Assembly: GCF_004346865.1 (NCBI RefSeq)
Contig: NZ_SMGR01000003.1
Location: 186,001-250,000 of the forward strand
Length of the DNA: 64,000 nucleotides
Origin: Shimia isoporae
Lineage (GTDB): Bacteria; Pseudomonadota; Alphaproteobacteria; Rhodobacterales; Rhodobacteraceae
Direction of reading: 5' to 3'
Program-made: the position numbers and the translations under genes
In this document: positions 4,011 to 61,903 of the stretch, one piece after another
Layout: each line of letters opens with the position of its first letter
Position numbering within the stretch: the stretch's first letter is position 1
Notes under the pieces: generated by a model
What the model was told of the DNA's origin: nothing
Seen by the model: only the letters and a program-made list of their open reading frames with translations
The model's database searches: none

Positions 4011-7000
4011 ATGGCTGATCCGACAGGTCCTGGTATCGTCGATGGAACCGAAAACGACGATGTAATTGAAGTAGGTTTTGCTGACGGCGAAGGCGACGCA
4101 GTTGCAAACGCCGGTGCGGCAATCAGCGCGCAAGGCGGCGACGACCTTGTAGAAGGCGGCAATGGCGACGACACTATTTACGCTGGCAACGGCGATGACA
4201 CAGTGTACGCAGGTGCCGGCGACGACGAAGTGTTCGGAGATGAAAGCGACCCGCAAGACGCGCCTCAAGATGGCGATCTGGAACCGGGTGACGATCTGCT
4301 CGCCGGCGAAGCGGGCTCCGATACAATCCACGGCAACGGCGGCGACGACGTGATCTACGGCGGCTTCGCACCGTCCAGCGACACCGGTGGTGGCGTAACC
4401 GGCGGCATCGAAAGCTTCAATTGGAGCGAAGCAGGTGTTGCTGCCGACGGCGACGCGCTGAACGGTCCGGTCACCCAGGACACGGGCACCGTATCTGTAG
4501 AGTTCACCACAACTGTATCCGGTGGCGCGACCTCAGAATTTGATACCGCCGCCCAGCTTCTTGACGGCATTGACGCTGGTCCGACGACGGCGAACATCAA
4601 TAGCGCCCTGCGCATGGACACAGGCGCTGGTACCGGCGCATCTACAACCGCGGCGTTGGAATTCTCCGAAGCAGTAGAAAACGTTCAGTTCCGCATCAAC
4701 GATATCGACGGCAACGCCGTGTCCAAAGTGTGGGCCTACGACGTCGACGGAAACCGCCTCGAAGTCACTCTCACGGCGACGGCCGACACGAACCTGCATC
4801 TGACCGATGTAGATGGCGACGGCACCAACGAAGCCGCGATTTCAAGCGGCGCAAACCCCGGCGCGCCCGGCGACCCCGCGAACTCCGTTCTGGTCAGCAT
4901 CCCGGGACCGGTGGCACGTATCGAAATCATTACCATCAATCTGGACGATGAACCGGCCGACATCACGGTCTCGGACGTCTACTTCACGACTGAGACAGTC
5001 GTCGTATCCACCGAAGATGGCGACGATGTTCTGACCGGCGGCGAAGGCAGCGACCTTATCTACGGTCAGGACGGTGAAGATGAGATCACCGGCGGAGAAG
5101 GTGTCGACACCATCGACGGCGGCGCTGACGCAGACACAATCATTGGCGGCAGCACACTGGATCTCGTTAACGGCGGTGGCGACGGCGACGACGACGACAC
5201 CCTTGACCTGCGCGGTCTGGGACCGATCACCGTGGTCTATGATCCCGAGAACGGCGAAAACGGTGTAGCCGTGATCGACGAAACCGGCGAAGCCTTTGAA
5301 TTCTTTGACATCGAGAACATTCTTGCGGACGAAATTTCTGACCGTGACCGTGATGGCATCGTCGAGGGTTCAGCCGCAGCGGATCTGATGGATCTGAACT
5401 ACGACGGGGACCCGGATGGTGACTTTGTCGACAACGAGGACAACATTTTCCCGTCCAATGAACCAAACGATGACATTATCGTGGGCTTTGGTGGCGACGA
5501 CACCATTGTTGCAGCCGAGGGTGACGACATCGCCTTTGGTGGCGAAGGCAATGACATCATGGGGGGCGGCGCAGGTGACGACAGCATGGCTGGCGGCGCA
5601 GGCGACGACTACATGGAAGGCGCAACTGGCAACGATGTCCTCTACGGTCGCGATGGTCACGATACCCTCGCTGGTGGCGATGACGACGACTTGCTCGTCG
5701 GCGAACACGGCGACGACGTCCTTGCTGGCGGCGCGGGCGAAGACACGCTCGTCGGTGGCACAGGCAACGATACGCTGGACGGCTCTTCCGGCAACGACTT
5801 GATGAAGGGCAACGAAGGCGACGACCTTCTGGACTCCGGTGGCGGTGACGACACCGTACACGGCGGTGAAGGCAATGACTTCATCGAAGGCAACCCCGGA
5901 AACGACGAACTCTGGGGCGATGAGGGTGACGACACCATCTTCGGCAACGACGGTGACGACACCATCCACGGCGGCGCAGGCAACGACACCATCTCGACCG
6001 GACCGGGCGAAGATATTGTCGACGCTGGCGACGACCGTGACCTGATCATCGTTGTTGGCCAGGATGACCAGTTCATCGACGGTGCAGAAGGCGGTGACGA
6101 CTTCGACACGCTCGAAGTACGCGGCCGCGCCGAGATCGTTTACGATCCTATGAACGCAGAGAACGGTGTCGTGCACTACCTCGATGGCGACGGAGTTCGC
6201 ACGGGTATCACCACGACCTTCGTGAACATCGAAAACGTCGTGATCGTTGACACCAGCGAACTGGACGGCGTGGTCGAAGGCACCGATGGCGACGACCTGA
6301 TCGACGCCTCTTACATGGGTGATCCCGAAGGCGACCGGATCGACAACTTCGACGCTCTGGACAACTTCCTGGACGAACCTCTCGACTCCACAGTCCCGTC
6401 AAGCTTCTTTGAATTCCCCGGCGGCACGCCGCGTGGTGACGAGCGTGACGCGGTTGATGCGGGCGACGGCAACGATACCGTATTCTCCGGCCAAGGCGAC
6501 GACGTCGTTCACGGTGGTGCAGGCGACGACAGCATCGACGCTGGCGCGGGCTTTGATGATGTGTCCGGCGGCTCTGGAAACGACACCATCTTTGGTGGCA
6601 TCGGTACAGACAAACTGTTCGGTGAAGGCGACGACGACGTTCTTTACGGCGGTGATCAGTCCGACACCATCTACGGTGGCGACGGCAACGACGAACTCTG
6701 GGGTGAAGACGACGCCGACTCTCTGATCGGCGGCGAAGGTGACGACACCTTCGTTGGCGGGCAGGGTTCCGACACCATTGATGGTGGCGAAGGCAACGAC
6801 TCGATCCTTGCTGGTGACGGCGATGACGTGATCATGACCGGTAGCGGTGCCAACTATGTAGACGCCGGTTCCGGCGACAACATGGTGATGGCCGGTATCG
6901 GTGACGATACGCTGGTCGGCGGCTCCGGTGCGGACAGCATTGATGGCAACGGCGGCAACGACTTGATCATCGGTGGCGCGGGTGTTGACACCATCGACGG

Positions 7001-8291: not shown

Positions 8292-8324
8292 GGGTCGGCC
8301 GTGGGGGCCGGCCCTTCTCTTTTT
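8292..8324 (+). terminator. Rho-independent terminator of the RTX gene
   Basis: A nine-base stem (8292-8300 with 8306-8314, one G-T pair) closes a five-base loop and is followed by TTCTCTTTTT. It lies 30 bases after the RTX-Hint stop codon. Confidence 0.9.
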
Positions 8325-8417
8325 GGGAGCCTCTTCGCGTGCAAAGGGCTGGACAGCCTCCTGCCTAATGTCTTTGATCATTCCGACCACTCACCCAACC
8401 CAAAGGGGACACATGAC

Positions 8418-9194
8418 ATGCCGGCGCCAAAGAACACGTTTAAAGCGGCTCTCGCAAACAACCAGCCGCAGATCGGATGTTGGATGTCTTTCGCAGAGGC
8501 TTACGCAGCCGAACTCATGTCCACCACCGGCTTTGACTGGCTGGTGATTGATGGCGAACACGGTCCCAATGACCTGCGAAGCATCCGTGACCAACTTATG
8601 GTTATTGATCCCTCGCCCAGCCATGCCGTGGTCCGTGTGCCCTATGGGCAGGATTGGATCATAAAGCAGGCGCTTGATGCCGGCGCGCAAACCTTGCTCG
8701 TGCCGCTCGTCGATACAGCAGACCAGGCGCGCGAACTGGTTCGCGCCTGCCGCTATGCCCCAGAAGGCATTCGCGGCATGGGAGGCGCCGGTTCTCGCGT
8801 AACTGGGTTCGGCGCGATCCCGGACTATGTAACCACAGCAAACGATGAAATCTGTTTGTTAGTTCAAGCAGAAAGCCGACTCGCCATTGAAAACCTTGAT
8901 GAAATTCTGGCCGTTGAAGGAGTGGACGGTGTGTTCATCGGTCCCGCGGATCTCTCGGCCGATATGGGATACCCCGGCAACTCGGAAGCTGACGAGGTCC
9001 AGGACACCATCGAGGCTGCAATCAAGAAAACCCGGGCCGCTGGCAAGGCGGCAGGCATCCTGACACTCACTCTCGAAGGTGCCAAGAAGCATCTTGAGCA
9101 AGGCGCAACGTTCGTCGCGGTTGGCATGGACACACTCGTTCTTGCCAAGGCCGCGCGCGCATTGAGTGCCGACGCCAAAGCGTTTCTGGACTGA
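8418..9194 (+). CDS. HpcH/HpaI family aldolase
   Basis: A 258-residue class II (metal-dependent) aldolase of the HpcH/HpaI family, which splits 2-keto-3-deoxy acids such as 4-hydroxy-2-oxoheptanedioate or 2-keto-3-deoxy-sugar acids into pyruvate and an aldehyde. The family hallmarks are FDWLVIDGEHGPND near residue 37, GAQTLLVPLVDTADQA, the metal-binding Glu of VQAESRLAIEN and the following VFIGPADLSADMG. Length is normal. The ATG at 8418 follows an AAAGGGG site. The actual substrate cannot be told from sequence. It is followed after 22 bases by a channel gene on the same strand, but a functional link is not evident. Confidence 0.9.
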   Translation: MPAPKNTFKAALANNQPQIGCWMSFAEAYAAELMSTTGFDWLVIDGEHGPNDLRSIRDQLMVIDPSPSHAVVRVPYGQDWIIKQALDAGAQTLLVPLVDTADQARELVRACRYAPEGIRGMGGAGSRVTGFGAIPDYVTTANDEICLLVQAESRLAIENLDEILAVEGVDGVFIGPADLSADMGYPGNSEADEVQDTIEAAIKKTRAAGKAAGILTLTLEGAKKHLEQGATFVAVGMDTLVLAKAARALSADAKAFLD

Positions 9195-55788: not shown

Positions 55789-56640
55789 CTAGGTCAGGGC
55801 CTCCACCATCGCCGCGTTCTGAACATGCATCAGATACGCCTTCGCTTGAGTCGCGACGCAACTGGCATGCGCCATCGCCGCCGCGTCCACCTCTTCGCCG
55901 CGCGTCACAGGCGGGCAGGGAATGAAGTACACATCCGGTCGACAACGCTCCAATATCGCACCTGTCACCGAAAAACCTGCCACCTTCCGTCCCGCGGTCG
56001 ATGACCAGCAGTCGGTGACGATCACATCCGCTTCCAACAGCGCCGCCTCACTTTGAGTGACATCACAGCCGGGTGGCAGAGCATCCGGCCCAACTCCCTG
56101 CTCGACGGGGCACCACTGGGTCACCGAAATTGGCACCACCCGCGCCGCCTCGAGCCAGGACTGAACAATGTTGCCATTCGGCGCAGCCACTACAACCTTG
56201 AGCCCGTCGAGATGCCCTTTGCGCGACAGGACAAACGCCAAGTCACCAAGTATCTCGCACGGATGGTTGTCATTGGTCCGCAGGTTCAGCACCGGAAACG
56301 CGGCCGCCTCCGCAAAGGCCGCCAATCGTGACAAGCGCGGAGTGCGAACGGCCATCAGGTCACACCAGTTGCCGAGATAACCAGCCAGATCACCGACTGC
56401 CTCACCGCCCTCCAGCATCACGCCGGTGTCGACACAGATCGCGCCCATCTCTGCCGCCCCCAGCTTCACCGCCGTCGGATTGCGCCACCCCGGCAATTCG
56501 GCAATCAACCCGATCCGCCGACCTTGCAAAACCCGCGGCATGGCCCGTGCTTCCCAGTCCTGAGCGATTTGCAACGACCGCTCGAGCAAAGCCTCAAGCG
56601 CTGCCCGATCCAGATCATCCACTCGCAACAAATGCCGCAT
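55789..56640 (-). CDS. Divergent carbamoyltransferase-fold protein (OTC-like)
   Basis: A 283-residue protein with the two-domain pattern of aspartate/ornithine carbamoyltransferases, but with changed active-site motifs. The STRT carbamoyl-phosphate loop reads PGWRNPTAVKLG, HPCQ reads HPCE in NDNHPCEILGDL, the DxxxSMG ornithine loop reads DCWSSTAG, and HCLP reads PCPPVTRGEE. The fold is therefore clear, but normal carbamoyl transfer to ornithine is doubtful. The ATG at 56640 overlaps the stop of the GMC oxidoreductase gene (TGATG), tying the two together. It could be a transferase for another amine, or a binding protein. Confidence 0.8.
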   Translation of the reverse strand: MRHLLRVDDLDRAALEALLERSLQIAQDWEARAMPRVLQGRRIGLIAELPGWRNPTAVKLGAAEMGAICVDTGVMLEGGEAVGDLAGYLGNWCDLMAVRTPRLSRLAAFAEAAAFPVLNLRTNDNHPCEILGDLAFVLSRKGHLDGLKVVVAAPNGNIVQSWLEAARVVPISVTQWCPVEQGVGPDALPPGCDVTQSEAALLEADVIVTDCWSSTAGRKVAGFSVTGAILERCRPDVYFIPCPPVTRGEEVDAAAMAHASCVATQAKAYLMHVQNAAMVEALT

Positions 56641-58223
56641 CACCACGCCTGTGACAGCATCATTTCCGCCGCCTTTTCACCAATCATGATCGACGGCGCA
56701 TTTGTGTTGCCTGATGTGATCGTTGGCATCACCGAGGCATCCACAACCCGCAAGCCGGCCAGCCCCCGCATCCGCAGCTCTCCATCCAGCGGCGCAGCTG
56801 CATCACTGCCCATGCGCACGGTTCCAACGGGATGGAAAATCGTTGTACCTATGTCGCCCGCCGCATGCGCCAGCTCTGCATCGTCTTGTGCGGTGACCCC
56901 GGGCTTCATCTCTTCGGGCGCATATTTTGCCATCGGCCCCTGTGCCATGATCTGACGTGCCTGCCGGATCGCCGCCACAGCCACCGCACGGTCGCCTTCT
57001 GTTGCCAAGTAGTTCGGCGCAATCTCCGGTGCCTGAAACGGGTCCGCTGACCGGATGCGCACATGCCCACGGCTCTCGGGGCGCAGGTTGCAGACGCTCG
57101 CAGTGATGGCTGGGAAGTCATGCAGTGGCTGTCCAAACGCCTCCAGTGACAGGGGCTGAACATGGTACTCAAGATCAGGGGTCGCCAGATCCGGGCGCGA
57201 CTTGGTAAATGCGCCCAGCTGGCTCGGCGCCATCGACATGGGCCCGGTACGTTTTGCCAGATACTCCAGTCCAATCTTTGCCTTGCCCCACAGGGAATTC
57301 GCCATGGTATTGAGCGTCTTGGCCCCCTGAAGTTTCCACGCGCAGCGCAGTTGCAGGTGATCCTGTAGGTTGGAGCCGATACCTTCCACTTCGTGCTGCA
57401 CAGCAATCCCGTGTTCCCGAAGAATGTCGCCCGGCCCCACTCCGGACAGCTGCAAAATCTGGGGGGAGTTCACCGCGCCCGCAGACAACACGACGTCGCC
57501 ACCGCAACGCGCCTGCTTCAGGTCTCCGTTTTGCCGATACTCCACCCCAACCACGCGCCCGCGCTCTATCAGGAGGCGCAGGGTTTGCGCGTTCACCTCC
57601 ACCTTCAAACGGTCCTTGCGAGGACGCAAAAAAGCCTTGGCTGTATTCCACCGCCAGCCGCTCTTCTGATTGACCTTGAAATACCCGACGCCTTCGTTGT
57701 CGCCAGTGTTGAAATCATCCGTTCGGGGCACTCCTGCCGCCTCTGCGGCCGCCATCCAGTCATCGAGCACATCCCAATGCAGACGCTGGTTGTTCACATG
57801 CCACTCGCCGCCAGCACCATGCAGGTCCGACGGCCCGTCCATATAGTCCTCGGACTTCTTGAATAGTGGCAAAACGTCATCCCACCCCCAGCCCGCCAAT
57901 CCCATCTGACGCCAGCCGTCGTAGTCCGCAGCCTGCCCCCGCAGGTAAAGCATCCCGTTGATCGAACTGCACCCGCCCAAAACCTTGCCGCGCGGATAAA
58001 TCAACTGCCTGCCGTTCAAACCAGCGTCCGGCGCCGTTTTGTACATCCAATCAGTGCGGGGATTGCCGATGCAATACAGATATCCCATCGGGATATGAAT
58101 CCAGTGATACGTGTCGCGACCACCCGCCTCGAGCAACAGCACCTTGCGGCCGCCTTCGGCCAAGCGCGCAGCTACCACACAGCCGGCGCTGCCCGCGCCC
58201 ACAACGATATGATCCCAGTCCAA
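56640..58223 (-). CDS. GMC family oxidoreductase (choline dehydrogenase-like)
   Basis: A 527-residue FAD enzyme of the GMC family. The dinucleotide fold is VVGAGSAGCVVAARLAEGG at 6-24, the first family signature PRGKVLGGCSSINGMLYLRG near 78, and the active-site His and Asn are in FHPVGTVRMG near 464 and GNTNAPSIMIGEKAA near 508. It oxidises an alcohol to an aldehyde; choline, polyethylene glycol or other alcohols are possible. The start is TTG at 58223 with GAGGGG. It is coupled to the carbamoyltransferase-like gene and not to betaine genes, so a role in choline use is not supported by context. Confidence 0.92.
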   Translation of the reverse strand: MDWDHIVVGAGSAGCVVAARLAEGGRKVLLLEAGGRDTYHWIHIPMGYLYCIGNPRTDWMYKTAPDAGLNGRQLIYPRGKVLGGCSSINGMLYLRGQAADYDGWRQMGLAGWGWDDVLPLFKKSEDYMDGPSDLHGAGGEWHVNNQRLHWDVLDDWMAAAEAAGVPRTDDFNTGDNEGVGYFKVNQKSGWRWNTAKAFLRPRKDRLKVEVNAQTLRLLIERGRVVGVEYRQNGDLKQARCGGDVVLSAGAVNSPQILQLSGVGPGDILREHGIAVQHEVEGIGSNLQDHLQLRCAWKLQGAKTLNTMANSLWGKAKIGLEYLAKRTGPMSMAPSQLGAFTKSRPDLATPDLEYHVQPLSLEAFGQPLHDFPAITASVCNLRPESRGHVRIRSADPFQAPEIAPNYLATEGDRAVAVAAIRQARQIMAQGPMAKYAPEEMKPGVTAQDDAELAHAAGDIGTTIFHPVGTVRMGSDAAAPLDGELRMRGLAGLRVVDASVMPTITSGNTNAPSIMIGEKAAEMMLSQAW

Positions 58224-58340: not shown

Positions 58341-59213
58341 TTAGGCTTCAGCCGGTTCCATATTCAGCTTCTCCGGATTGCGCATGACATAGATCCACTG
58401 CACCTGCCCCGCTGCGTTCGGGACAACCACCGTCAGCGTGTCCAAAACACCCGCAACAAACCGTGCCATTGCGGGCAAACCATTGGCCTTCACCAGCTCG
58501 AACCGCACGTCGGGAAGGTCTCGGTCTTTGGCCATAACCGACGTAAGCACCAGCATGATCTCCTCGGGTCCTCGTAGAACCCTCCGCGCTGCACGCACCT
58601 TGGCACCGCCATCGGTCACCGCCATCGCATCTGCGGCCAGCATCTTGAGTGCCGCCGCATGGTCCTGTGTGGCCGCGATAAAAAATTTCTGAAGCGCCGC
58701 AGCGGCTTCCTCGCGCGAGACATCAAACCGTGGCCCTTCCGACTGCAACCGCTTGTGCGCGCGGCTTACCATCTGACGACACGCCGCCTCCGTCCGCTCA
58801 AGCGTGGCGGCAATCTCTGCATAATCGGCATCAAACGCCTCGCGTAAAACAAATGCGGCCCGCTCAGCCGGTGCCAGCCTCTCCATCGCCCAAAGCAACG
58901 CCAGTTCGCATTCCTCTGCCAACTCGAACCCTGCTTCAGCTCCGGCATCGGCCGCCCCGATCAATGGTTCGGGCAGCCAAGGCCCGACGTAGTGCTCACG
59001 CCTCACCTGCGCTGACCGCAGCGTATCGATCGCGACGTTGGTCGCCACCCGTCGCAGCCATGCCCGCGGGTTGTCGACACTTCGCGCGCCAGAAAATCGA
59101 AGCCAGACCTCCTGCACCACATCTTCCGCTGCGTGACGCTCCCCGAGCATGCGGTATGACATGGACAACAAAGCCGGTCTCTCGGCCTCGAAAAGGTCCA
59201 CCATATCCTTCAT
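58341..59213 (-). CDS. ECF41-type RNA polymerase sigma factor with SnoaL-like tail
   Basis: A 290-residue ECF sigma factor. Region 2 spans about 8-75, a linker with WLPEPL at 79-84, region 4 spans about 100-155, and a C-terminal SnoaL-like domain covers about 170-290. That tail carries DGGAK (201-205) and NPEKL (279-283), close to the DGGGK and NPDKL motifs of group ECF41, in which the fused domain controls the sigma factor in place of an anti-sigma protein. It is the last gene of an operon with an AhpD-like gene, the usual ECF41 partner type. Upstream of the operon is an ECF41-like promoter, so it likely controls its own operon. Confidence 0.92.
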   Translation of the reverse strand: MKDMVDLFEAERPALLSMSYRMLGERHAAEDVVQEVWLRFSGARSVDNPRAWLRRVATNVAIDTLRSAQVRREHYVGPWLPEPLIGAADAGAEAGFELAEECELALLWAMERLAPAERAAFVLREAFDADYAEIAATLERTEAACRQMVSRAHKRLQSEGPRFDVSREEAAAALQKFFIAATQDHAAALKMLAADAMAVTDGGAKVRAARRVLRGPEEIMLVLTSVMAKDRDLPDVRFELVKANGLPAMARFVAGVLDTLTVVVPNAAGQVQWIYVMRNPEKLNMEPAEA

Positions 59214-59747
59214 TCAGGCCACCTCCCCAAGACGCCCGCCGACATCAATCCGCTGGCAGGCGTGGCCCTGCCCCAACCCGCGCTTGAACACCGGATAGAA
59301 CCGACCGGTCGCCGCCGCGAAACTTGCTGCCACAAGAGCATGATCGCCAAACCGCGCGCGTATCGTGTCCGCAAATTCATTGGCGTCATAAGAACGCGCA
59401 ATGGCTTGTTGGGCAAACTGAAAGCCCAGCCCCACGTCACCGGCGTCCGAAAAACGCGCCTCGATGGCCGCCAGAAGGTGATCTGCGGACACGCCTTGCT
59501 CCAACGCCATATCCACCACCAGCTGTCCGCACGGCCCGCAGTCTCCATCAAGCGTCGAAGCAAGCAGAGCCCCGAACCACACAGCGCGGGCAACCTGCGG
59601 TCCACGATGTTGAGACAGCATGGGAAACAGCGTCAATGCCAGTCCAGCCCCGACTGACGTATCGATCACCTCGTGCATATAATCGGTGTCATAGGCATAT
59701 TTCCGTCCAAAGGCCCGCGCGCCCGCATGTAAAACCGCTCTGATCAT
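59214..59747 (-). CDS. Carboxymuconolactone decarboxylase/AhpD-like protein
   Basis: A 177-residue helical protein with a CxxC pair (Cys70 and Cys73 in DGDCGPCGQLVVDMAL), as in the AhpD/CMD superfamily of thiol-active proteins. Such proteins are the usual neighbours of ECF41 sigma factors. The rest is all-helical (FADTIRARFGDHALVAASFAAATGRFY). The ATG at 59747 has AGGAGG and overlaps the stop of the membrane protein gene upstream. Its stop touches the sigma gene start. A redox or peroxide-related role is likely but unproven. Confidence 0.85.
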   Translation of the reverse strand: MIRAVLHAGARAFGRKYAYDTDYMHEVIDTSVGAGLALTLFPMLSQHRGPQVARAVWFGALLASTLDGDCGPCGQLVVDMALEQGVSADHLLAAIEARFSDAGDVGLGFQFAQQAIARSYDANEFADTIRARFGDHALVAASFAAATGRFYPVFKRGLGQGHACQRIDVGGRLGEVA

Positions 59748-60133
59748 GCCACCGCCTCCTCGCGACCAAAGCTGGCTGCAGCCCAAAGCGCCGCCCACGC
59801 CGGAGCTTGAATCCCAATCAGGTTAACCAGAGCAACAATATCGGCCGCGTATCCACGATGGACCGCCCAGATCCAGACGTGAAACACCGCGTGCAACACC
59901 GGAAACCCTGCGCCAAACAGCGCGACCTCACGGTTGCCTGCCTTTGCGCCTGCGATCAGGGCCATGCCCGACACCGCAAAGGCAATCGCCACATCCCGGA
60001 TGAAATGATCATTGTAGCCGCCGGTCGCCGCCACACCGGGCACCGCTTCAAACCACTGATGCGGTGCCACCCACATCACCACCGCGTTGCCCAAAAAGAA
60101 CAGGCCGCAGCCCCAAAGTACCGATTTTGTCAT
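59744..60133 (-). CDS. Four-helix membrane protein of the ECF41 operon
   Basis: A 129-residue inner-membrane protein with four hydrophobic segments (about 4-22, 47-65, 70-92 and 98-120). Histidines and tryptophans sit in the turns (APHQWFEAVPG, NDHFIRD and LHAVFHVWIWAVHRG), which could bind a metal or quinone. I do not recognise the family. It is the first gene after the ECF41-like promoter and is coupled to the AhpD-like gene by an ATGA overlap, so it is expected to be part of the same response. Confidence 0.78.
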   Translation of the reverse strand: MTKSVLWGCGLFFLGNAVVMWVAPHQWFEAVPGVAATGGYNDHFIRDVAIAFAVSGMALIAGAKAGNREVALFGAGFPVLHAVFHVWIWAVHRGYAADIVALVNLIGIQAPAWAALWAAASFGREEAVA

Positions 60134-60161
60134 CTGCAAATCTCCAAGCTGTTTCCCTTAA

Positions 60162-60188
60162 GACGAAACAGCCTGTCGATTTGTGACA
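60162..60188 (-). promoter_or_regulatory. ECF41-type promoter TGTCACA-N16-CGTC
   Basis: Read on the minus strand, TGTCACA (60188-60182) is followed by exactly 16 bases and CGTC (60165-60162). This matches the promoter described for ECF41 sigma factors. It begins just after the stop codon of the Lrp gene and lies 29 bases before the first gene of the operon that encodes the ECF41 protein, so it explains self-activation. Confidence 0.8.
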
Positions 60189-60189
60189 C

Positions 60190-60648
60190 TCACACAGGCA
60201 AAGCCGTGGTTTTGAAAACGGTGCGGAGAGCAAAGCTTGATTGCATCTGGGCGACGCCCGGCAAACGCGCCAGATGCTGACGGTGAATGCGTGCGAAATC
60301 TTCGGTGTTCTCGGCAACCACCTTGAGGATGTAATCCGCTGTGCCTGCCATCAGGTGACACTCAAGCACATCCGGTATCCGCGCCACCGCTTTTTCGAAG
60401 GCATCCAGCACTTCATCCGCCTGCCCCGACAGGGTGATTTCAACAAAAACCGTGGTTGGTACGTCCATCTTGCGGGGATCAAGCAGCGCAACATAGTCGC
60501 GAATATAGCCGTCCGCCTCCAGCCGGTGCACACGTCTGTGGCAGGCGCTTGCAGAGAGATTCACCCGCTCTGACAGCTCCGCATTGGAAATCCGCCCCTG
60601 CTTTTGCAGCACCATCAGGATGCGACGATCCGTTGAATCAATTGACAT
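60190..60648 (-). CDS. Lrp/AsnC family regulator (AldR-like)
   Basis: A 152-residue regulator with an N-terminal helix-turn-helix (QGRISNAELSERVNLSASAC near residue 17) and a C-terminal RAM ligand domain (VECHLMAGTADYILKVVAENTEDFARI-like region, residues about 95-125). It is divergent from ald. This arrangement is known for AldR/BkdR-type proteins that activate alanine dehydrogenase in response to alanine. The intergenic DNA has a 17-base palindrome that is a good operator candidate. Confidence 0.93.
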   Translation of the reverse strand: MSIDSTDRRILMVLQKQGRISNAELSERVNLSASACHRRVHRLEADGYIRDYVALLDPRKMDVPTTVFVEITLSGQADEVLDAFEKAVARIPDVLECHLMAGTADYILKVVAENTEDFARIHRQHLARLPGVAQMQSSFALRTVFKTTALPV

Positions 60649-60682
60649 GATACGGTGACTCCTTGCGTCTGGCTCTTAAGTA

Positions 60683-60699
60683 TTCGAAGATTCTTCGAA
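60683..60699. promoter_or_regulatory. Palindrome between lrp and ald
   Basis: TTCGAAGA-T-TCTTCGAA is a perfect eight-base inverted repeat around one base, in the divergent lrp-ald promoter region, with AT-rich flanks on the ald side. It is a plausible binding site for the Lrp-type regulator. Confidence 0.65.
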
Positions 60700-60784
60700 A
60701 GCCAAGTTTTCAAACTGCCTAAATTTCAAGCAAATTCTCCTGCCGCATTCCTACCTTTACCTAAAGTCACATCAGGAGAGCGAC

Positions 60785-61903
60785 ATGAAGATCGGCTGCC
60801 CAACAGAAATCAAACCACAGGAATTTCGCGTCGGCATGACGCCGGATGCCGCCCGCGAGGCGGTCGCACACGGCCACGACGTGCTCATCCAGTCGGGCGC
60901 CGGCAACGGCGCAGGCTTCACCGACGAAGACTACATCGCAGCCGGTGCACAGATCATCGGCACCGCACCGGAGGTCTTCGAAAAAGCCGACATGATTGTA
61001 AAGGTTAAGGAACCACAGGCGGACGAGCGCAAGATGCTGCGCGAAGGCCAGCTTCTCTTTACTTACCTGCACCTCGCCCCCGATCCCGAACAGACCAAAG
61101 ACCTCATGGAAAGCGGCTGTACTGCCATCGCCTATGAGACCGTGACCGACGCCAGCGGCGGCCTGCCGCTTCTGTCTCCCATGTCCGAAGTCGCTGGACG
61201 CCTTGCACCACAAGTCGGCTCTTGGACGCTGCAAAAGGCCAACGGTGGCCGCGGCGTCCTGATGGGCGGCGTGCCCGGTGTTGCACCTGCAAAAGTGGTG
61301 GTGATCGGCGGCGGCGTTGTTGGCACGCACGCTGCCAAGATCGCCGCAGGCATGGGCGCGGATGTGACCGTACTGGACCGCTCGCTCACCCGTCTGAAAT
61401 ATCTTGATGACGTTTTCGGCGGCACTTTCAAGAACCAGTATTCCACCGCAGGCGCCACCGCAGAGCTGGTGCGGGAGGCTGACATGGTGATCGGCGCGGT
61501 CCTGATCCCCGGTGCAGCAGCCCCAAAACTTGTCACCCGCGCGCAGCTGTCTGAAATGAAGCCGGGCGCGGCTCTGGTGGATGTCGCCATCGACCAGGGC
61601 GGCTGCTTCGAAACGTCCCGCGCTACCACACACGCGGACCCGATCTACGAAGTCGACGGCATCATGCACTACTGTGTAGCGAACATGCCCGGCGCAGTGG
61701 CACGGACCTCGACCCAAGCCCTTGGCAACGCAACTCTGCCTTTCCTGCTCAACCTTGCTGACAAAGGCTGGAAGCAGGCATGCGAGGACGATCCTCATCT
61801 GTTGAACGGACTGAACGTGCACGCAGGTCAGCTCACCTACTATGCCGTCGGCAAAGCGCTTGGCATCGATGTGATCTCGCCGGCGCTGGCTCTGAAAAAC
61901 TAA
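60785..61903 (+). CDS. ald: Alanine dehydrogenase
   Basis: Ald deaminates L-alanine to pyruvate and ammonia with NAD, and can run in reverse. The 372-residue protein begins MKIGCPTEIKPQEFRVGMTP and has the substrate lysine of MIVKVKEPQADE, the dinucleotide loop VVIGGGVVGTHAAKIAAGMG near residue 170 and the later VDVAIDQGGCFETSRATTH. Length is normal. An AGGAG site precedes the ATG. Control by the divergent Lrp protein is likely. A perfect 11-base hairpin follows eight bases after the stop. Confidence 0.97.
   Translation: MKIGCPTEIKPQEFRVGMTPDAAREAVAHGHDVLIQSGAGNGAGFTDEDYIAAGAQIIGTAPEVFEKADMIVKVKEPQADERKMLREGQLLFTYLHLAPDPEQTKDLMESGCTAIAYETVTDASGGLPLLSPMSEVAGRLAPQVGSWTLQKANGGRGVLMGGVPGVAPAKVVVIGGGVVGTHAAKIAAGMGADVTVLDRSLTRLKYLDDVFGGTFKNQYSTAGATAELVREADMVIGAVLIPGAAAPKLVTRAQLSEMKPGAALVDVAIDQGGCFETSRATTHADPIYEVDGIMHYCVANMPGAVARTSTQALGNATLPFLLNLADKGWKQACEDDPHLLNGLNVHAGQLTYYAVGKALGIDVISPALALKN

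Follow-up and report, generated by a model that had tools for sequence, protein, structure and literature searches.

What does an ECF41 sigma factor control when its operon begins with a membrane protein of no named family, and what would such a protein contribute? The question is raised by a locus of Shimia isoporae that lies in a window of 64,000 nucleotides (contig NZ_SMGR01000003.1, positions 186,001 to 250,000), the stretch to whose numbering the coordinates below refer. Translation of the region gives three genes in the order M, A and S, which, like all features of the operon described here, are on the minus strand. M (59744-60133) starts with ATG and encodes a 129-residue protein with four transmembrane helices, A (59214-59747) encodes a 177-residue protein with a CGPC motif, and S (58341-59213) encodes a 290-residue ECF41 sigma factor with a C-terminal extension. 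The reading frames of M and A share the four bases ATGA, and the TGA of A directly abuts the ATG of S, as an earlier reading of this DNA made from its letters alone (the sequence-only reading) had stated. We consider it probable that these genes form an autoregulated ECF41 operon of an M-A-S type, with a membrane-associated thiol redox pair as its output. The operon is a confirmed and conserved variant of the ECF41 type, not a new class, and the membrane protein family and its fusion to A are the interesting part.

S has the architecture of an ECF41 factor. Pfam places sigma-70 region 2 at residues 7-69 and region 4 at residues 106-156, and a tail of about 100 residues extends beyond them. The linker between the two regions contains WLPEP (residues 79-83, 58965-58979), which has been described as characteristic of the ECF41 linker (PMC3426412). 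The C-terminal extension carries DGGAK (58599-58613) and, at the C-terminus, NPEKL (58365-58379), with Asp-201, Gly-202, Gly-203, Asn-279, Pro-280 and Lys-282 invariant across 13 aligned ECF41 sequences. A text search of two ECF41 papers for DGGGK and of one for NPDKL found neither, the strings being those with which the sequence-only reading had compared these motifs and which stem from that reading. A 13-sequence ECF41 profile that includes S aligns with SigJ of Mycobacterium tuberculosis (5xe7) from position 4 to position 286 (E = 6e-74). S also matches the NCBIfam models for SigX4 and SigJ over nearly its full length, with scores below the curated cut-offs (280.6 versus 323.25 bits for TIGR02957, SigX4; 267.5 versus 271 bits for NF007214, SigJ); these are subfamily naming models, not the ECF41 definition. 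A search of its own genome with S returned S itself and one other sigma-like frame, which aligned over residues 13-156 only (E = 6e-6). In a tree of 56 sigma factors, 33 from M-A-S loci and one from a locus with A and S form a single clade (support 99/88), and Shimia aestuarii is the nearest named relative.

The M-A-S order recurs in many genomes. From a scan of genome_contigs the best 80 of 288 M relatives were kept, and all counts out of 80 loci refer to these. M-A-S is found at 32 of them, counting L139, in which M and A form one open reading frame (ORF), and L108, in which it is a second M copy that counts. The hosts, by record title, are Rhodobacterales, Hyphomonadaceae, Rhodobiaceae and others. 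The two M copies of L108 (Rhodobiaceae) lie at 5001-5384 and 8323-8691, and only the second heads M-A-S. A census of 295 genomes of the family, with thresholds of E <= 1e-30 for ECF41 and E <= 0.001 for A-like proteins, found ECF41 in 22, A-like proteins in 14 and M in seven genomes, and in all seven, the window included, M heads an M-A-S operon. An eighth genome (G005, locus L062) has the promoter followed by A and S and no recognizable M. In the remaining 14 family loci with ECF41, no M is seen at E <= 1e-10; a canonical carboxymuconolactone decarboxylase (CMD) gene stands beside the sigma gene in 12, upstream in 11 and downstream in L070, and two are without one. M-A-S is thus an ECF41 variant with M and A in the usual place of the CMD. 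Searched with a hidden Markov model (HMM), 352 genomes from the class yielded M in 21. Outside the window, its 22 M loci comprise 12 M-A-S operons, one M-A pair with a promoter (L224), two M genes beside a canonical CMD (L207 and L208) and seven M genes that stand alone, one of them with a promoter (L218). The family and genome_contigs sets overlap, because L083, L085, L093 and L097 are on the same contigs as G204, G210, G277 and G186, respectively. The sequence-only reading had singled out the membrane gene as the new element and asked whether it stays with ECF41 genes in other genomes, which indeed it does.

The genes that flank the operon are not part of this conserved unit. A GMC oxidoreductase gene lies downstream (56640-58223, minus strand), and genes for an Lrp-type regulator and alanine dehydrogenase lie upstream (60190-61903); in agreement with the sequence-only reading, no anti-sigma gene adjoins the operon. 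Considered as operon parts, the trio was rejected, since it is present in only 6 of 39 loci, some of which end before any flanking genes could be seen. The six loci (L020, L021 and L082-L085) represent four Shimia-type genomes, L020/L085 and L021/L083 being the same contigs. The conserved entity is therefore the three-gene unit.

Is this unit read by its own sigma factor? An ECF41-type promoter, TGTCACAAATCGACAGGCTGTTTCGTC (60162-60188), precedes M, with the -35 element TGTCACA at 60182-60188 and the -10 element CGTC at 60162-60165, separated by 16 bases. The sequence-only reading had named this motif and placed it 29 bases before the first gene; the motif stands, and the distance to the ATG of M is 28 bases. 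Taken by itself, the match in the window is weak evidence, because TGTCACA-N14-18-CGTC occurs there once versus 0.20 times expected, and at least once in 19 of 100 shuffles. It is also not rare in this genome, where spacers of 14-18 bases give 12 sites versus 9 for the reversed pattern and exact N16 sites number 3 versus 1. In 30 of 31 M-A-S loci an exact promoter stands no more than 220 bases before M (L106 was left out because its contig begins in M), whereas dinucleotide-preserving shuffles of the same regions, in 200 sets, gave a mean of 0.01 per set and at most 1. The spacers of 28 of these 30 promoters are distinct, and the 31st locus (L091) has a promoter with one mismatch and N16. All eight family genomes with M-A-S or A-S carry the promoter; its spacer is N15 in G280 and N16 in the other seven. 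Among the 12 M-A-S loci of the class set, six promoters are exact and six (L215, L216, L219, L221, L222 and L225) have one mismatch, with N16. The same check at the sigma-less M loci L207, L208, L209 and L217 yielded best sites with two to five mismatches. The significance of the promoter therefore lies in its position and conservation, not in its rarity, and on these grounds the claim of a self-type ECF41 promoter is upheld. Within the spacers of the 30 M-A-S loci, A is found at position 1 in 24 and at position 2 in 27, and C-T-G at positions 11-13 in 25, 21 and 23, respectively; these preferences are a possible subgroup-specific promoter extension.

What kind of protein is M? Its structural model has four transmembrane helices (pLDDT 95.8). 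We aligned 75 M proteins (alignment A4); six of the 80 were left out, four being fused to A (L139, L145, L149 and L152), one being cut by a contig end (L106) and one lacking a recognized start codon (L160). Mean counts of lysine plus arginine across the 75 proteins are 0.87 for the N-terminus, 1.88 for loop 2 and 2.51 for the C-terminus, which places these segments inside, and 0.21 for loop 1 and 0.60 for loop 3, which places these outside. By the model and this charge distribution, the cytoplasmic segments are short. Two sets of polar residues stand out. Asn-41, His-43 and Asp-47 belong to the motif N-x-H-F-x-x-D (59993-60013) at the start of the second helix, on the predicted periplasmic side, and His-81 and His-85 (59879-59893) lie within the third helix. 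The pattern used for the genome_contigs scan contained N-x-H-F-x-x-D, and the invariance of these residues in A4 is thus by construction; His-81 and His-85 are found in all 75 proteins. The class HMM search is a fairer test, although the HMM itself was built from A4. His-43, Asp-47, His-81 and His-85 are present in all 22 of its homologues, found without the pattern, and Asn-41 in 17 of 22 (judged by eye). By helix order, the two sets should lie close to each other, towards the periplasmic face. With M of the window, Pfam gives no family at E <= 1, and hence not DoxX_2, and NCBIfam gives only a chance-level match (0.11). A profile of M has no match among Protein Data Bank (PDB) sequences at E <= 1, and a Foldseek search with the model gave nothing usable (best E 0.25), NACHO/TMEM35A (TM-score 0.54, E = 1.4) being given no weight. 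Of the 75 M proteins in the alignment, 11 match DoxX_2 at E <= 0.1, the best of them at 6e-5. M thus represents an unnamed family that is distantly DoxX-like.

A is probably a divergent protein of the AhpD fold. Modelled alone, not as the natural M-A fusion, it is all-helical (pLDDT 92.9), and the top 14 Foldseek chains comprise seven AhpD/CMD/alkyl hydroperoxide reductase proteins, three of the debrominase Bmp8 and four hypothetical proteins of Pseudomonas aeruginosa, with a weak best E of 0.06. AhpD of P. aeruginosa (7xw1) is matched with a Foldseek probability of 1.00 and a TM-score of 0.71 by target length, at an E of only 0.09. Alignment of A with canonical CMDs by hhalign gives a probability of 66 and E = 5.7e-5. 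A profile of A searched against PDB sequences matches 2gmy (hypothetical protein Atu0492), which we take to be AhpD-like, at E = 0.0073, and 7xw1 at E = 0.56. The Pfam CMD model is matched by 5 of 36 aligned A relatives at E <= 0.1 (best 4.1e-5). Across these 36 sequences Asp-69, Cys-70, Gly-71, Cys-73 and Cys-164 are invariant; the CGPC motif of the window (Cys-70 and Cys-73, 59529-59540) is thus a strictly kept CxxC, and Cys-164 is a third invariant cysteine. The AhpD-like CxxC partner proposed by the sequence-only reading is supported.

M and A belong together beyond their regulator. In L139, L145, L149 and L152 they form one uninterrupted frame of 295-310 residues; L149 and L152 are near-identical, so that these fusions amount to three distinct proteins. 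In L139 (Reyranella) the fusion has both promoter and sigma gene alongside, which L145, L149 and L152 do not. A-M pairs without an adjacent sigma gene are found in L125, L142 and L146. An A-type gene is present in 39 of the 80 M loci, and in a further 12 a canonical CMD gene lies on the strand of M, at most about 1.1 kb away; overall, 51 of the 80 have a partner of AhpD/CMD type. Other arrangements combine the same elements: in L130, the sigma gene diverges from a group of M, A and a cupin gene, and each of the two sides has a promoter; the Sphingomonas-type loci L141, L154 and L160 read promoter-SDR-M-S, then promoter-CMD; and L140 and L151, also Sphingomonas-type, read promoter-CMD-S-M. We scanned 31 of 54 neighbouring ORFs, after discarding by eye the sigma genes, the apparently out-of-frame ORFs and a small number besides, and found 10 NmrA/NAD-binding, 3 CMD, 3 SCO1-SenC and 5 DUF4345 matches. 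NmrA/SDR genes also adjoin M, and both CMD and NmrA/epimerase are partner types reported for ECF41 (PMC3426412). An SCO1/SenC-type gene lies downstream of M in L138, L142 and L158 (apparently the three SCO1-SenC matches), and small proteins are encoded upstream of M in L121, L122, L136, L143 and L161 (apparently the five DUF4345 matches).

M also occurs apart from the sigma gene. It has an ECF41-type promoter without an adjacent sigma gene in L111, L132, L158 and L218 (in L158 the promoter lies only 8 bases before the chosen start codon, which makes that start doubtful), and a full-length ECF41 factor is encoded elsewhere in all four genomes. For 38 genomes in which M has neither a sigma neighbour nor a promoter, ECF41 was detected in 18 and not at E <= 1e-40 in 20, some of these being incomplete; many of the loci come from metagenome-assembled genomes, in which absence may reflect incompleteness. 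The contrast between 4 of 4 and 18 of 38 is small (one-sided p of about 0.07, calculated by hand). This genome search left out the genome of L152 and that of L224, the locus with M-A, a promoter and no sigma gene in the stretch. Together, the unlinked promoter-bearing M genes and the M genes of genomes in which ECF41 was not detected indicate that M can serve as an ECF41-type target and does not depend on the presence of ECF41. M behaves less like a dedicated sensor than like an output acting together with A.

We propose that the ECF41 factor is held back by its own SigJ-like C-terminal domain and that it reads TGTCACA-N16-CGTC before M, which would yield more sigma factor together with its output. 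Dependence of this promoter type on ECF41 and inhibition by the tail are established for the group (PMC3426412, PMC8999054), and we infer them for this operon. The output would be a two-protein membrane unit of M and A. M would have both termini in the cytoplasm and would hold its conserved His, Asp and Asn residues close to the periplasmic side of the membrane; A, with an AhpD fold, CGPC and one more cysteine, would reside in the cytoplasm. The predicted position of the C-terminus of M inside the cell fits a cytoplasmic A as well as the M-A fusions. Fusion, linkage and conserved residues suggest that A may dock on the cytoplasmic face of M and that the two together may act on a membrane-borne substrate by thiol-dependent redox chemistry. 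Candidate substrates are a lipid or alkyl hydroperoxide, a quinone or a similar electrophile; M might bind this substrate itself or else hold a metal or a quinone. A bolder form of this proposal is tentative and rather doubtful: M-A could be a new family of membrane redox enzymes, with a four-helix His/Asp subunit and an AhpD-fold thiol subunit that sometimes form one polypeptide, whose action on a membrane-borne oxidant or electrophile would be the real output of ECF41, the CMD-only systems being a reduced form of it.

Several observations weigh against an M-A redox pair under ECF41 control. A has Val-77 where 13 of 13 canonical CMDs have the histidine of CxxCxxxH, and A of the window does not match the Pfam CMD model at E <= 1; peroxidase chemistry is therefore not implied. 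No structural match of the M or A model reached E = 0.001. M is accompanied by neither A, sigma gene nor promoter in 33 of the 80 loci, seven of which have a canonical CMD instead. Conversely, the five A-type loci L077-L081 have no M or S nearby (E <= 1e-10), these being five of the six weak matches among the 14 A matches in the family. The sigma factors of L025, L130 and L139 fall outside the main M-A-S clade of a tree with some long branches. ECF41 mutants of Rhodobacter sphaeroides and Bacillus licheniformis, in which the partner is a CMD, showed no oxidative-stress phenotype (PMC3426412).

Could M instead be the sensor? M might detect a membrane or periplasmic signal and pass it to the tail of ECF41, either itself or by way of A; we consider this improbable. 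It would account for the leading position of M, for its tight linkage within the main M-A-S clade and for conserved polar residues on the predicted periplasmic side, and no ECF41 signal is known from the literature. Yet M has short cytoplasmic segments only, which by the model and charge distribution are too short for an anti-sigma domain, and a sensor would be expected neither unlinked under an ECF41-type promoter, as in the four loci above, nor in the 20 of 38 genomes in which ECF41 was not found. Moreover, Wecke et al. saw no signalling role for the partners in two systems, where the partner is a CMD. The sequence-only reading had offered M as sensor or protected target; with these observations and the A fusions, that suggestion is now less supported.

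An ordinary ECF41 operon in which M is a passenger or a generic anchor without chemistry of its own is, in our estimate, quite unlikely. The genome with promoter, A and S and no recognizable M (G005) would suit such an operon, as would the diverse gene content around ECF41 that is already known (PMC3426412). A mere passenger would, however, hardly keep His-43, Asp-47, His-81 and His-85 in all 22 homologues found without the pattern, nor show repeated linkage, in several arrangements and as fusions. A chance origin of the promoter motif, with the operon transcribed from a different promoter, has almost no probability left, for although just 7 of 22 exact N16 sites in the eight operon-bearing family genomes are at the operon, the position-specific conservation across distinct spacers described above speaks against it. 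The 15 sites elsewhere compare with 5 for the reversed pattern; this threefold excess is unexplained, and further targets are therefore possible. By eye, no gene recurs downstream of the 15 sites, many of which fall within ORFs, the ORF set including out-of-frame ones.

The autoregulated M-A-S operon with its putative thiol redox pair matters because ECF41 is a widespread sigma factor group, and the operon offers a clue to what is controlled by a regulator family that is still poorly understood. The fusion of M homologues in places to their thiol partner points to the membrane as a possible site of the substrate, and the operon provides a first context for an unnamed membrane protein family. 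A literature search that joined ECF41 and DoxX found no paper. The 2021 reclassification of ECF factors may describe loci like M-A-S, Wecke et al. draw hypothetical genes in their Fig. 2, and we do not claim that the arrangement is unpublished. The main study of ECF41 found no inducing condition and no reproducible phenotype in either species tested (PMC3426412); since those systems are of the CMD type, operons with M-A open a new avenue, with mutable residues and culturable relatives such as Shimia aestuarii for seeking the missing phenotype.

We compared the operon with known systems. The DoxX-like four-helix proteins (Pfam DoxX_2) resemble M in their four transmembrane helices and are matched by some of its relatives, whereas M of the window matches no Pfam family. 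A shares CxxC and probably the all-helical fold with AhpD/CMD proteins such as 7xw1 and differs from them by its CGPC, the absence of a histidine at +4, the third invariant cysteine and the lack of a Pfam CMD match of its own. M. tuberculosis SigJ, compared by the protein alone, corresponds to the ECF41 profile in full length, its C-terminal domain included. The closest ECF41 operons are RSP_0606-ecf41Rsp of R. sphaeroides, ydfG with ecf41Bli of B. licheniformis and SMb20029-rpoE9 of Sinorhizobium meliloti (PMC3426412, PMC6180224). They have in common with M-A-S an ECF41 factor with a C-terminal extension, a promoter of the TGTCACA-N16-CGTC type, a linked partner and no anti-sigma gene. Their partner is one CMD gene, in whose place the Shimia operon has M and the 177-residue CGPC protein.

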